Assembly: GCA_945907245.1 (NCBI GenBank)
Contig: CAMDTB010000028.1
Span: 1 to 40,776, forward strand
DNA length: 40,776 bases
Direction of reading: 5' to 3'
Origin: Rhizobium sp. Q54
Lineage (GTDB): Bacteria; Pseudomonadota; Alphaproteobacteria; SMXS01
The notes beneath the pieces are model-generated. The model was not told where the DNA came from and searched no databases. It was given only the letters and a program-made list of their open reading frames with translations. Both the position numbers and the translations under genes were made by a program. This document shows, piece by piece, positions 19,551-24,692 of this stretch; positions within the stretch are counted from its first letter, which is position 1; each line of letters opens with the position of its first letter.

Positions 19551-19625
19551 TGGTGGGCGCAGCAAGGTTCGAACTTGCGACCCCTACGATGTCAACGTAG
19601 TGCTCTACCACTGAGCTATGCGCCC
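19551..19625 (-). tRNA. tRNA-Val (anticodon GAC), CCA encoded
   Basis: A full cloverleaf is visible on the minus strand: acceptor GGGCGCA/TGCGCCC, D-arm GCTC-AGTGGTA-GAGC, anticodon stem CTACG/CGTAG with loop TTGACAT (anticodon GAC), 5-nt variable loop and T-arm GCAAG-TTCGAAC-CTTGC. An encoded CCA follows the discriminator A. It totals 75 nt including CCA and reads GUC/GUU valine codons. Confidence 0.97.
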
Positions 19626-19641: not shown

Positions 19642-19669
19642 ACTATAAGCAAAACGTCCGGCGGTGCAA
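19642..19669 (-). promoter_or_regulatory. Sigma70-type promoter of tRNA-Val
   Basis: On the minus strand -35 TTGCAC, 16-bp spacer and -10 TATAGT lie about 17 bases upstream of the tRNA 5' end. That distance leaves a short leader for RNase P, as usual for a tRNA gene. Confidence 0.75.
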
Positions 19670-19730
19670 GACCTGTGTTGCGGCTCCAGGCCGCTGGAAT
19701 GCGGCGCCGGCCGGTTTCGTGTCCACCCGG

Positions 19731-19758
19731 TTGCCCCGCCGCCAAATTCCGTCATAAT
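19731..19758 (+). promoter_or_regulatory. Probable sigma70-type promoter of the N-formylglutamate amidohydrolase gene
   Basis: -35 TTGCCC, 16-bp spacer and -10 CATAAT (five of six consensus bases) on the plus strand, 52 bp upstream of the chosen start codon. The placement supports the start at the ATG of MTPSEPALK and not further upstream. Confidence 0.5.
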
Positions 19759-19810
19759 TCTCTGTGGAAGTCTCTTGCCGGAGGCGCATCCCGTACCAGA
19801 TGATCGGACG

Positions 19811-20734
19811 ATGACCCCCAGCGAACCCGCACTCAAAGTCCACGCCGCGCCCGAGACGGATGCCGGACCGCCCGCGTGCCTGGTGACCGAGCCGGCGCGC
19901 CAGACGGCCGCGCTGGTGTTTTCCTCGCCGCACAGCGGCCGCTACTACCCGGAGGACTTCGTCTCCTCGTCCCGGCTCGACCCGCACACGCTGCGCGCGT
20001 CCGAGGACGCTTATGTGGACGAACTGTTCGGCGACGCGCCCCATCTTGGCGCGCCGCTGATCCAGGCCAACTACGCCCGCGCCTACCTGGACGTGAACCG
20101 CGAGGCGTGGGAACTCGACCCGGAGATGTTCGACGGGCCGCTGCCCGAGTTCGTCAACGCCCGCTCGGGTCGCGTCGCCGCCGGCCTCGGCACCATCGCC
20201 CGCGTGGTGGCGAGCGGCACGGCGATCTACAGCGGCCTGATGCCCTTCGCAGAGGCCGAGCGGCGGGTGTCGGAGGTGTACAAGCCCTATCACCAGGCGC
20301 TGACCCGGCTGCTCGACCGGACCCGTGGCCAGTTCGGCTGCGCTGTGCTGATCGACTGCCATTCCATGCCGTCCTGCGGCGGCTCCTGGGGCGACATGCC
20401 GCTGAAAAGCGGCGGCGCCGTACCGGACTTCATCCTGGGCGACCGCTATGGCAGGAGCTGCCACGGCGAGGTGATGGCCGTCGCCCAGCAGGCGCTGGCC
20501 GCGCGGGGCTACCGGGTGGTGCGCAACGATCCCTATTCGGGCGGCTTCAACACCCGCCACTACGGCGTGCCCCGCGAAGGCCGCCACGCGCTGCAGATCG
20601 AGATCAACCGGGCGCTGTACATGGACGAGGCGACCATGGGGCGCGGCGACGGCTTCGCGCCGCTGCGCGAGGCCATGAACGCGCTGATCCTGGCGCTGGC
20701 CGGGCTGCCGCTGAGCCTGCTCAAGGCGATGTGA
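19811..20734 (+). CDS. N-formylglutamate amidohydrolase family protein
   Basis: 307 residues. The FGase fold is shown by VFSSPHSGRYYPEDF (metal-binding His), the acidic SEDAYVDELF, RAYLDVNREAWELDP, the second metal motif LIDCHSMPSCGG and the closing RHALQIEINRALYMDE. Family members deformylate N-formylglutamate in histidine degradation, or act on other N-formyl amino acids. No hut genes are adjacent, so the histidine pathway role is not supported by context. The ATG 52 bp after a good promoter is chosen; the frame is open upstream but crosses that promoter. Confidence 0.9.
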   Translation: MTPSEPALKVHAAPETDAGPPACLVTEPARQTAALVFSSPHSGRYYPEDFVSSSRLDPHTLRASEDAYVDELFGDAPHLGAPLIQANYARAYLDVNREAWELDPEMFDGPLPEFVNARSGRVAAGLGTIARVVASGTAIYSGLMPFAEAERRVSEVYKPYHQALTRLLDRTRGQFGCAVLIDCHSMPSCGGSWGDMPLKSGGAVPDFILGDRYGRSCHGEVMAVAQQALAARGYRVVRNDPYSGGFNTRHYGVPREGRHALQIEINRALYMDEATMGRGDGFAPLREAMNALILALAGLPLSLLKAM

Positions 20735-20803
20735 TCAACCCGCGGAAAATCCTTACGGCGGTGTAACCTTTTCTCCGTGGCCACGTTCGTTGGCGGATCG
20801 ACC

Positions 20804-20837
20804 AAAAAAAAGAGCCACTCCAGTTGCCTGAAGTGGC
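20804..20837 (-). terminator. Strong intrinsic terminator
   Basis: On the minus strand a 10-bp stem GCCACTTCAG/CTGGAGTGGC (one G-U pair) closes a GCAA tetraloop. It is followed by TC and a run of eight Ts. No coding gene ends close to it on this strand; the nearest stop is 186 bp away. A small RNA promoter lies 74 bp upstream. Confidence 0.88.
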
Positions 20838-20905
20838 CCAAGTTTAGGGAGGAAACGCCCACGAAGGGCAGTACCTTCTCGCGAGAAACGCGGGCGAAGG
20901 TACAT
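20804..20905 (-). ncRNA. Candidate trans-acting small RNA with anti-Shine-Dalgarno loop
   Basis: A transcript of about 100 nt is predicted from a promoter just upstream to the strong terminator. Reading 5' to 3' it would fold as adjacent hairpins. The first is an 8-bp stem GTACCTTC/GAAGGTAC (20871-20903) with an inner CGCG/CGCG. The second is a short GCCC/GGGC hairpin (20857-20869). The third is GTTT-CCTCCCT-AAAC (20842-20856), which presents CCUCCC in its loop, and the last is the terminator hairpin. A CCUCCC loop in front of an intrinsic terminator is the hallmark of several alphaproteobacterial riboregulators (AbcR/alpha-r types, Cuckoo RNAs) that pair with ribosome-binding sites. I do not recognise the sequence as a named family, and it is not 6S, SRP or RNase P RNA. 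Confidence 0.65.
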
Positions 20906-20910
20906 CCGTG

Positions 20911-20938
20911 ATTTTAGGACTCCCCGGCCGTGAATCAA
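20911..20938 (-). promoter_or_regulatory. Sigma70-type promoter of the small RNA
   Basis: Minus strand: -35 TTGATT (preceded by C, as in the alphaproteobacterial CTTGAc form), 16-bp spacer, -10 TAAAAT (five of six). The predicted start falls at about 20905, one or two bases before the first hairpin. The element CCGTGA recurs three times on the plus strand (near 20906, 20928 and 20957) and might be a regulator site. Confidence 0.6.
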
Positions 20939-21022
20939 GGCATTTCGGGAAATCTTCCGTGAACAATGGGTTACAGGGCGGATTCGCGCGAAACGACTAC
21001 TGCCCTGCTACCGCGGCTTGCC

Positions 21023-21994
21023 TCACGGCGTGATCACGACCTTGCCCGTGGACTTGCGGGTCACCACCGATTCCAGGCCGTCGATGGCCTGCTCCAGCGG
21101 GAACGTCTTCGATACCAGCGGCGCGATGCGGCCCTGCGCCAGCCATTCGAGCAGCTGCTCCTGGCTGCGGCGCGATACCTCGGGGGCCAGCACGTCATAG
21201 GCCGGTCGGTTGACGCCGATGATGTCGACGTTCTTCACCATGACATGGTTGGCCGGGATCTGCGGCACCCGCCCACCGGCAAAGCCGATCACCAGGATGC
21301 GCCCTTCGAAGGCGACGCAGCGGAGCGACGCGTCGAACACGTCGCCTCCCACCGGATCGTAAATCACGTCGGCGCCGCGCCCGCCGGTCAGCGCCTTCAC
21401 TCGTTCGCGGATGTCCTCCGCCAGGTAGTCGATCGCCTCGTCGGCGCCGGCGGCGCGGGCGATCTCCAGCTTGTCCGGGCCGCCCGCGGTGGCGATGATC
21501 CGCGCGCCCATGATCTTGCCCAGTTCCACCGCGGTCAGGCCGACGCCGCCCGCCGCGCCGTGCACCAGCAAGGTCTCACCCGGCTTGAGCCGCGCCCGGT
21601 GCGCCAGCGCCACGTGGCTGGTGCCGTAGGTGACCGCGAAACTGGCCGCCTGTTCGTAGGTCAGGCCATCGGGAAGGTTCGTCAGCCGGTCGGCGTTCAC
21701 CGCCGCCAGTTCGGCGTAGCCGCCGCCCGTCAGGCCCATCACCCGGTCGCCCACGGCGAACCCATCGACGCCCTCGCCCAGCGCGACGACGTCGCCAGCG
21801 ATCTCCGAGCCGGGGATGAACGGCAGGGCCGGCTGGTTCTGATACTTGCCCGCCGCCATGATGCTGTCGGCGAAGTTGATGCCGCAGGCGCGGATGCGCA
21901 CCAGCGCCTGGCCGGGACCGGCGACCGGATCGGGCACCTCCTCGAGCTTGAGGACGGACAGGTCGCCGAACTCGCGGCACATGATGGCTTTCAT
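21023..21994 (-). CDS. NADPH:quinone oxidoreductase family protein (zinc-independent MDR)
   Basis: 323 residues, medium-chain dehydrogenase/reductase of the quinone-reductase branch. The N-terminal GroES-like domain has RACGINFADSIMAAGKYQ and PGSEIAG (61-67). The Rossmann domain has HGAAGGVGL (145-153) and ADVIYDPVGGDVFDASLRC. The catalytic zinc cysteine/histidine set is absent, as in QOR/crotonyl-CoA-reductase-like proteins. It reduces quinones or conjugated enones with NADPH in the cytoplasm. It follows the FAD oxidoreductase by 10 bp, so both are on one transcript. No terminator lies within the first 100 bp after its stop. Confidence 0.9.
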   Translation of the reverse strand: MKAIMCREFGDLSVLKLEEVPDPVAGPGQALVRIRACGINFADSIMAAGKYQNQPALPFIPGSEIAGDVVALGEGVDGFAVGDRVMGLTGGGYAELAAVNADRLTNLPDGLTYEQAASFAVTYGTSHVALAHRARLKPGETLLVHGAAGGVGLTAVELGKIMGARIIATAGGPDKLEIARAAGADEAIDYLAEDIRERVKALTGGRGADVIYDPVGGDVFDASLRCVAFEGRILVIGFAGGRVPQIPANHVMVKNVDIIGVNRPAYDVLAPEVSRRSQEQLLEWLAQGRIAPLVSKTFPLEQAIDGLESVVTRKSTGKVVITP

Positions 21995-23202: not shown

Positions 23203-24003
23203 GTGGCCGGCAACGACGGCAGACCGCGACTGAGCGACGCCGAGGCGCGCGACCTGCTCGCCTTCGCCCACACGCTGGCCGACGCCGCCGGCGCGGTGAT
23301 CAAGCCACTCTTCCGGTCGGCCGGCGTAATCGACAACAAGCGCGCCGCCGACTTCGACCCGGTGACCGCCGCAGACCGTGACGCCGAGTCCGCCATGCGC
23401 GACCTGATCGCCGCGCGCTACCCGGACCACGCCGTCTATGGCGAGGAACACGGCGCCGAATGGGGCGAGCGGTTCACCTGGGTGCTCGATCCGCTCGACG
23501 GCACGCGCTCGTTCATCGGCGGCTTTCCGACATGGGGCACGCTGATCGGCCTGGCCGAGTACCGCCGCCCGGTGATCGGCATCATGGACCAGCCGGTGAC
23601 CGGCGAACGCTTTACCGGCGGCCCCGACGGCGCGTTCCTCGGCGACCTGCGGCTGAAGGTCCGGCCTTGCCGGCGGCTCGAGGACGCGGTGCTCTACGCG
23701 ACCACGCCCGACATGTTCAAGGGCGAGGACATGGCCGCGTTCCGCCGGGTGGAGCAGCAGGTGAAGCTGCGCCGCTTCGGCGGCGACTGCTATGCCTACT
23801 GCATGCTGGCGCACGGGCTTGTAGACCTGGTCGTCGAGGCCAGCATGCAGCCCTACGACATCCATGCCCTGATCCCCATTGTCGAGCAGGCGGGCGGCAT
23901 CGTCACCAACTGGGAAGGCGAGCCGGCATGGCAGGCAGGGCGCATCCTTGCCGCTGGCGACCGCCGGGTGCACCAGGCCGCGCTCGACGCGCTCCACGGC
24001 TGA
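23203..24003 (+). CDS. Inositol-monophosphatase-family phosphatase, probable histidinol-phosphatase (HisN type)
   Basis: 266 residues starting at GTG, with AAGGGGA 9 bases upstream. Metal-site motifs are GEEHG (80-84), DPLDGTRSFIGG (96-107) and QPYDIHALIPIVEQAGG near the end. The DPxDGTRSF-I-x-G-x-P-T-W-G-T run and the lone Asp in YDIHA suit the HisN subgroup, which dephosphorylates histidinol phosphate in histidine synthesis using Mg2+. A general inositol or sugar phosphatase cannot be excluded, because no other his genes are near. A second, clearly different member of the superfamily lies at 30905-31717. Confidence 0.82.
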   Translation: MAGNDGRPRLSDAEARDLLAFAHTLADAAGAVIKPLFRSAGVIDNKRAADFDPVTAADRDAESAMRDLIAARYPDHAVYGEEHGAEWGERFTWVLDPLDGTRSFIGGFPTWGTLIGLAEYRRPVIGIMDQPVTGERFTGGPDGAFLGDLRLKVRPCRRLEDAVLYATTPDMFKGEDMAAFRRVEQQVKLRRFGGDCYAYCMLAHGLVDLVVEASMQPYDIHALIPIVEQAGGIVTNWEGEPAWQAGRILAAGDRRVHQAALDALHG

Positions 24004-24101
24004 GCGCACCGCGCAACATTCTTTCTCCTTCCGCAACAAAGTGGTAATATTTGTTCGGTCCTCGCCGATCCAGGGACCGCTGGATGAAGGGGAGACGAAT
24101 C

Positions 24102-24692
24102 ATGTCATCGTTGAAACACGGAATGGCGGGGCTGTTCGCTCTGGCCACCAGTTGCGTCGTGGCCGTCCCGGCCATGGCGGCGTCGGACATCTACCTGAAG
24201 ATCGAGGGCATTCCGGGCGAGAGCGCGGCCGCCGACCATAAGGGTGAGATCGAGGTCCTGTCCTGGTCGCTCGGCGCCAGCCAGCCGGCATCGCCGCGTT
24301 TCGGCGGGTCCGCGGCCGCGGGCCGCGCGGCCCAGGGCGCGCCTGCCGCGCCGCCACAAGGACCGGGCGCCATCACGGTGTCCAAGTCCTATGACCCGTC
24401 TTCGGCAAAGCTGGTGCAGGCCTGCGCCCAGGGCAAGCACTTCCCCAAGGCGACCCTTAGCGTCAGGAAAGCGGGCGGCGGCCAGCAGGAATACATGACC
24501 TACGAGCTCGAGAACGTGATGATCAGCAGCTACTCGCTATCGCCGCAGGGCGGCGCGTCGGGTGGGGGCGACCGGCCCATGGAGAGCCTGTCGCTCAACT
24601 ACACCAAGATCACCTACAAGACGACCGACGACGACGCGAAGTCGAGTGCGCCGAAGACCGGCTACGACCTTGCGCCGGCCAAGAAGATCTGA
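24102..24692 (+). CDS. Sec-exported Hcp1-like protein (T6SS tube-protein fold)
   Basis: 196 residues. A signal peptide (MSSLKHGMAGLFALATSCVVAVPAMA) is followed by the Hcp fold. The visible hallmarks are DIYLKIEGIPGES, KGEIEVLSWSLG, KLVQACAQGKHFPKATLSVRKAGG, QEYMTYELENVMISSYS and the end ESLSLNYTKITYKT. An Ala/Pro/Gly-rich insertion replaces the usual loop between strands 2 and 3, and a polar tail follows. True Hcp forms T6SS tubes inside the cytoplasm and has no signal peptide, so this orphan probably works in the periplasm or outside. No other T6SS gene is in the window. The start ATG has AAGGGGAGA upstream. The CsgG-family gene follows 70 bp later. Confidence 0.88.
   Translation: MSSLKHGMAGLFALATSCVVAVPAMAASDIYLKIEGIPGESAAADHKGEIEVLSWSLGASQPASPRFGGSAAAGRAAQGAPAAPPQGPGAITVSKSYDPSSAKLVQACAQGKHFPKATLSVRKAGGGQQEYMTYELENVMISSYSLSPQGGASGGGDRPMESLSLNYTKITYKTTDDDAKSSAPKTGYDLAPAKKI

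Follow-up and report, generated by a model that had tools for sequence, protein, structure and literature searches.

We found a genuine, intact and conserved small RNA gene on the minus strand of the window (the whole 40,776-nt stretch of DNA analysed). The gene, at about 20904-20804, very probably encodes a trans-acting small RNA of the alpha-r8 (suhB/MmgR/SisA) family that is linked to an N-formylglutamate amidohydrolase (FGase) gene, has its own sigma-70 promoter and an intrinsic terminator, and would pair with Shine-Dalgarno (SD) sequences with Hfq. It represents no new type of RNA, as its family is already catalogued under RF00519 in Rfam (suhB, "Makes More Granules Regulator RNA") and under alpha-r8 in the literature.

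An Infernal comparison with the Rfam suhB model, which a preliminary description of the locus had suggested, was clearly positive. The covariance model RF00519 matches with 62.7 bits, well over its gathering score of 41, and with an E-value of 9.8e-11 over the window. In the literature, alpha-r8 RNAs are recognized by UUUCCUCCCU, internal and single-stranded, with a hairpin upstream of it and a Rho-independent terminator, and by the location of the main copy beside an FGase gene (PMC12559287). All of these occur here: the 10-mer is predicted to be single-stranded, a weak hairpin lies on its 5′ side and a Rho-independent terminator on its 3′ side, and the neighboring gene encodes FGase. Coordinates are listed in Table 1.

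Table 1. Features of the small RNA locus, its neighboring genes and two divergent sibling RNAs located outside the window
Feature	Position	Strand	Basis
-35 hexamer TTGATT	20938-20933	-	Sequence reading
-10 hexamer TAAAAT, 16-nt spacer	20916-20911	-	Sequence reading
Transcription start, predicted about 6-8 nt past the -10	20902-20905, about 20904	-	Sequence reading, predicted
5′ stem-loop: 8-bp outer stem GTACCTTC/GAAGGTAC and inner CGCG stem	20903-20871	-	Fold of ten family members
Short hairpin GCCC-UUCGU-GGGC (DNA GCCC-TTCGT-GGGC)	20869-20857	-	5′ stem of Rfam model; conserved
Linker stretch GTTTCCTCCCTAAAC / GUUUCCUCCCUAAAC	20856-20842	-	Sequence reading
alpha-r8 signature 10-mer UUUCCUCCCU, predicted single-stranded seed	20855-20846	-	Exact match to family 10-mer (PMC12559287)
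Rho-independent terminator: 12-pair stem (20839-20812), GCAA loop, eight T (20811-20804)	20839-20804	-	
RF00519 suhB/MmgR (alpha-r8) match, model positions 1-77 of 77	20876-20799	-	
FGase ORF, probable ATG 19811	19664-20734	+	PF05013, E 1.3e-74
NADPH:quinone reductase-type zinc-binding dehydrogenase, separate upstream gene	21023-21994	-	PF00107/PF08240/PF13602
Second anti-SD small RNA, upstream of a presumed lgt-like gene	G000:C3:19106-19201 (L002:1474-1569; L177)	+	
Third sibling RNA, with a CCCUCCCUU loop and ATGACUCCCCCAGACUUGGCCGC linker	G000:C18:24722-24821 (L207:1023-1122)	+	

The preliminary description had reported a small RNA gene made up of a promoter, hairpins, a CCUCCC stretch and a terminator, and these parts do lie on the minus strand where it had placed them. 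The promoter TTGATT, 16-bp spacer and TAAAAT can be read at 20938-20911, the 8-bp first hairpin and the short second one are both present, and the predicted transcript has the proposed total length of about 100 nt. For the terminator, the GCAA loop and the eight T residues stand as described, while the stem, given as 10 bp, has 12 pairs when G-U pairs are allowed. The view that such a regular arrangement of parts is unlikely to be due to chance is borne out by the Rfam E-value and by a folding z-score of -4.3 with none of 200 shuffles equally stable, for a folded stretch that included the promoter.

TTGATT-16-TAAAAT is the sole promoter-like site within 20500-21200, where 0.2 would be expected from shuffled sequences. 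Its -35 hexamer does not vary among the seven genomes of the genus and has drifted in the two sister genera (TGGATT/TTGGAT, TTGAAA and TTGTAA), and the -10 hexamer is kept in relatives as TAAAAT, TATAAT/TAATAT, CATATT or TACTAT. The predicted promoter is conserved within the genus, and drifts among consensus-like forms in the sister genera.

Ten family members have a common predicted fold, consisting of two 5′ stem-loops, an open linker containing the 10-mer, and the terminator. The 10-mer is unpaired in nine of these ten predicted transcripts, the exception being relative G008, where it is predicted to be partly paired. In the fold of the window RNA, its residues are unpaired with probabilities of 0.87-1.0 (about 0.99-1.0 for CCUCCCU and about 0.87-0.89 for the first three U residues). 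An exact UUUCCUCCCU occurs in 26/30 and 49/55 distinct relatives. The preliminary description had placed CCUCCC in the loop of a third hairpin, GTTT-CCTCCCT-AAAC. We rejected this hairpin: it is predicted to form at only about 13%, its pairs are lost in variants such as TGAC and GAAC, and it exhibits no covariation. Because the GUUU/AAAC hairpin is unstable and lacks covariation, the CCUCCC stretch is better read, on the predicted folds, as part of a single-stranded linker than as a sequence presented by a loop. This reading fits the results of in-line probing for the Agrobacterium suhB RNA, where the conserved sequence proved unstructured (PMC1273637), and the single-stranded state described for the SisA 10-mer (PMC12559287).

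The RNA had been likened in the preliminary description to AbcR (alpha-r15) and Cuckoo-type RNAs. Its placement in a stand-alone, trans-acting, anti-SD class holds, but according to the RF00519 match the family is alpha-r8, which includes MmgR and SisA-D, and we consider an AbcR-type or Cuckoo-type RNA highly improbable. All of these RNAs have a general design in common, in which hairpins and a terminator accompany open CU-rich anti-SD stretches. Cuckoo-type RNAs follow a small DUF1127 ORF and have a CCUCCUCCC loop. Here, by contrast, the upstream gene encodes a zinc-binding dehydrogenase, the conserved promoter of the RNA sits between the two, and CCUCCC is found instead of CCUCCUCCC. The suggested comparison with the corresponding Rfam models came out negative, in that a permissive scan of the locus (E <= 1) reported neither ar15 nor a Cuckoo family. 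The AbcR model (RF02345) also lacked a match anywhere in the genome at E <= 0.001, although this is weak evidence because control genomes gave no match either. A partial homology of alpha-r15 to suhB (PMC7143759) is in favor of AbcR. However, the window RNA has a single anti-SD stretch and its own conserved promoter, and its locus has FGase synteny rather than tandem copies near lsrB.

The alpha-r8 family is common among relatives. RF00519 had a match in each of the ten genomes searched from the GTDB family of the window (seven of its genus and three of sister genera), and scored above the curated cut-off in 32 of 60 relatives. We also built a model, R1, from the loci of 30 relatives and ran it on 80 FGase loci taken from public genomes by protein similarity. 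At E <= 0.05, the RNA was present in 53 of the 80 loci, invariably downstream of FGase and on the other strand. The median distance between the RNA and the end of the FGase match was 66 nt, and the RNA was within 200 nt in 48 of the 53 loci. When 16 of these FGase loci were scanned with Rfam, RF00519 exceeded its gathering score in seven. In the window, the FGase ORF converges on the RNA, with a gap of 69 nt from its stop codon.

This proximity on opposite strands, together with the widespread synteny, could also indicate a cis-acting element, i.e., a 3′-UTR or antisense regulator of FGase or a mere bidirectional terminator. We assign this explanation only a very small probability. The RNA lies entirely outside the FGase coding region, its most conserved part is the 10-mer, no T run follows the stem on the plus strand, and family copies occur elsewhere without FGase (PMC12559287, PMC1273637). 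It is similarly hard to believe that the locus is a degenerate, non-transcribed copy of an alpha-r8 gene, since the promoter, seed, hairpins and terminator are intact and are kept in seven species of the genus.

Other genes in the vicinity were noted. A tRNA-Val(GAC) gene (19551-19625, minus strand) is situated near the start of the FGase gene, and one or two tRNA genes lie upstream on the opposite strand at many FGase loci of other alphaproteobacteria. An inositol-monophosphatase-family gene (23203-24003, plus strand) is 2.3 kb from the window RNA. An ORF at 24051-24692 (plus strand) has a T6SS Hcp-family domain (PF05638) and occurs among metabolic genes.

The 77-nt Rfam model omits nearly the whole 5′ stem-loop, overlapping it only at its 3′ end. 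We compared the 5′ arms after anchoring on the conserved TGCCC; a MAFFT alignment misplaced the arms of the sister genera. Five of the eight pairs have changed on both sides, and all five distinct arm pairs form 8/8 pairs. Thus, 100% of cells are paired, compared with 80% in shuffles and 32-47% when the partner was slid, in a test that leans towards structure because the arms were chosen by eye. Judged by this covariation, the predicted 5′ hairpin is real and kept by compensatory changes. The covariance analysis proposed in the preliminary description therefore favors its first hairpin, with 5/8 pairs covarying, and not its GUUU/AAAC hairpin. The short hairpin is conserved among relatives, and a terminator-like 3′ end occurs in every aligned relative.

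We considered the 5′ hairpin as a novelty of this lineage, but dropped the idea, as most distant relatives likewise fold a hairpin at this position. For this reason, the 5′ hairpin is probably a variable feature of the family rather than an invention of the lineage. In favor of a short protein gene, there are mechanically open frames on the minus strand (a 61-codon TTG ORF at 20938-20753 and a 100-codon GTG ORF at 20862-20560). Such a gene nevertheless has next to no chance of explaining the locus, because the 61-codon ORF begins inside the -35 box, both ORFs cross the terminator, and base pairs are kept where the transcript varies.

Two divergent siblings, located outside the window, have two anti-SD stretches and are more unusual than the window RNA. 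In both, CCCUCCCUU lies within the loop of a strong 5′ hairpin, the linker provides a second CUCCC stretch, and a terminator follows. The first lies upstream of a gene that we take to be lgt-like from reading its protein rather than from a profile search, and consists of an 11-bp hairpin with a UUUCCCCUCCCUU loop, a CCUCCCUAAACUUGGGCC linker and a terminator. It scores 32.6 bits with RF00519, which is under the cut-off, and has orthologues in three genomes of the genus (G001, G003, G004) and a related copy in G007. An assignment of this sibling to ar7 (RF02342) was rejected, with 22.6 bits against a cut-off of 60 and no match in the genome. The other sibling was detected using a model, R2, built from the lgt-linked sibling and its relatives, and Rfam reported nothing for it at the gathering score. 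Similar copies exist in G002, G005 and G006. Outside the genus, matches to R2 are mostly the alpha-r8 loci themselves.

All nine siblings examined (L002, L113, L114, L115, L117, L119, L178, L179 and L207) are preceded by TTAA-N7-TTAA or TTAA-N7-TTCA, whose distance to the hairpin loop downstream, about 50 nt, hardly varies. Both sequences have the form of a CtrA box. Each of the seven genomes of the genus has the combined pattern of box and sibling, which is never reversed and occurs at ten places, of which one (G002:C2:223129) is outside the nine siblings examined and may be due to chance. With the second CCCUCCC loop and the CtrA-type promoter box of the two siblings, the three RNAs could form an anti-SD set, in which one nutrient-linked and two cell-cycle-linked RNAs compete for the same SD sites. 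We regard this idea as tentative and rather unlikely.

The window RNA most likely acts as follows. A sigma-70 promoter would give rise to a transcript of about 100 nt that is ended by the intrinsic terminator. The two 5′ stem-loops and the terminator would keep the 10-nt UUUCCUCCCU open, and with Hfq this sequence would pair with the A/G-rich SD regions (GGGAGGAA-type and GGGAGG-type) of a set of mRNAs. The pairing would block ribosome binding and so repress translation. We infer transcription, Hfq dependence and translational repression at this locus from SisA of Caulobacter and MmgR of Sinorhizobium; a role in carbon or nutrient adaptation, involving transporters or the storage polymer, is suggested by the same two RNAs. 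The FGase-linked SisA represses many mRNAs, prominently those of TonB-dependent receptors, by base pairing through the 10-mer, and is neutralized by the sponge CrfA, whose binding to the 10-mer is Hfq-dependent (PMC12559287). As a homologue of SisA, the window RNA probably also acts on many mRNAs. MmgR limits the accumulation of storage granules (PMC7143759), and the sources consulted named no direct mRNA target of it.

The genome has an hfq gene and three PhaC-type genes, so partners for such an action exist. The full 10-nt complement does not occur before an ATG in this genome, and across the genus there are few, non-recurrent cases. The 8-nt version GGGAGGAA is upstream of an ATG at 21 listed places in the genome, versus two for the reversed pattern, but GGGAGGAA is also a good SD sequence, and ordinary SD usage alone would produce such an enrichment. 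The 21 places, which include genes for a TonB-dependent receptor, a biotin carboxylase, ClpB and several dehydrogenases, are a list of candidates and not evidence of targeting.

Since alpha-r8 is an already catalogued family with a mechanism demonstrated in Caulobacter, the window locus alone changes little in what is known of it. The locus contributes a well-supported alpha-r8 gene from an environmental lineage of alphaproteobacteria, whose named relatives in this analysis are mostly metagenome-assembled drafts. In addition, the covariation indicates that the alpha-r8 5′ stem-loop, nearly absent from the Rfam model, is maintained by compensatory changes.

Among known systems, CcnA is a CtrA-controlled RNA with a C-rich loop (PMC8959179), and its likeness to the siblings extends to putative CtrA control and the C-rich loop alone. 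AbcR (alpha-r15) has the same trans-acting anti-SD logic as the window RNA, but is a different family without a match here. The Agrobacterium suhB element belongs to the same Rfam family as the window RNA, and has a conserved stretch without structure between its promoter and its terminator (PMC1273637). It was named for a nearby suhB-like gene, whereas the inositol-phosphatase-family gene of the window is too distant to be a neighbor. MmgR of Sinorhizobium meliloti is an Hfq-type small RNA (PMC7143759); the window RNA matches the Rfam model named for it (RF00519) over the full length and has the anti-SD motif in common with it. MmgR is 77 nt long and the window RNA is predicted to be about 100 nt. 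MmgR is under NtrC and AniA control (PMC7143759). SisA-D of Caulobacter crescentus, like the window RNA, have the UUUCCUCCCU 10-mer after a short hairpin and an intrinsic terminator, and sisA also exhibits the FGase synteny (PMC12559287). The seed G is at about nt 49 of the predicted window transcript and at residue 33 of SisA, so the predicted 5′ part of the window RNA is the longer one.
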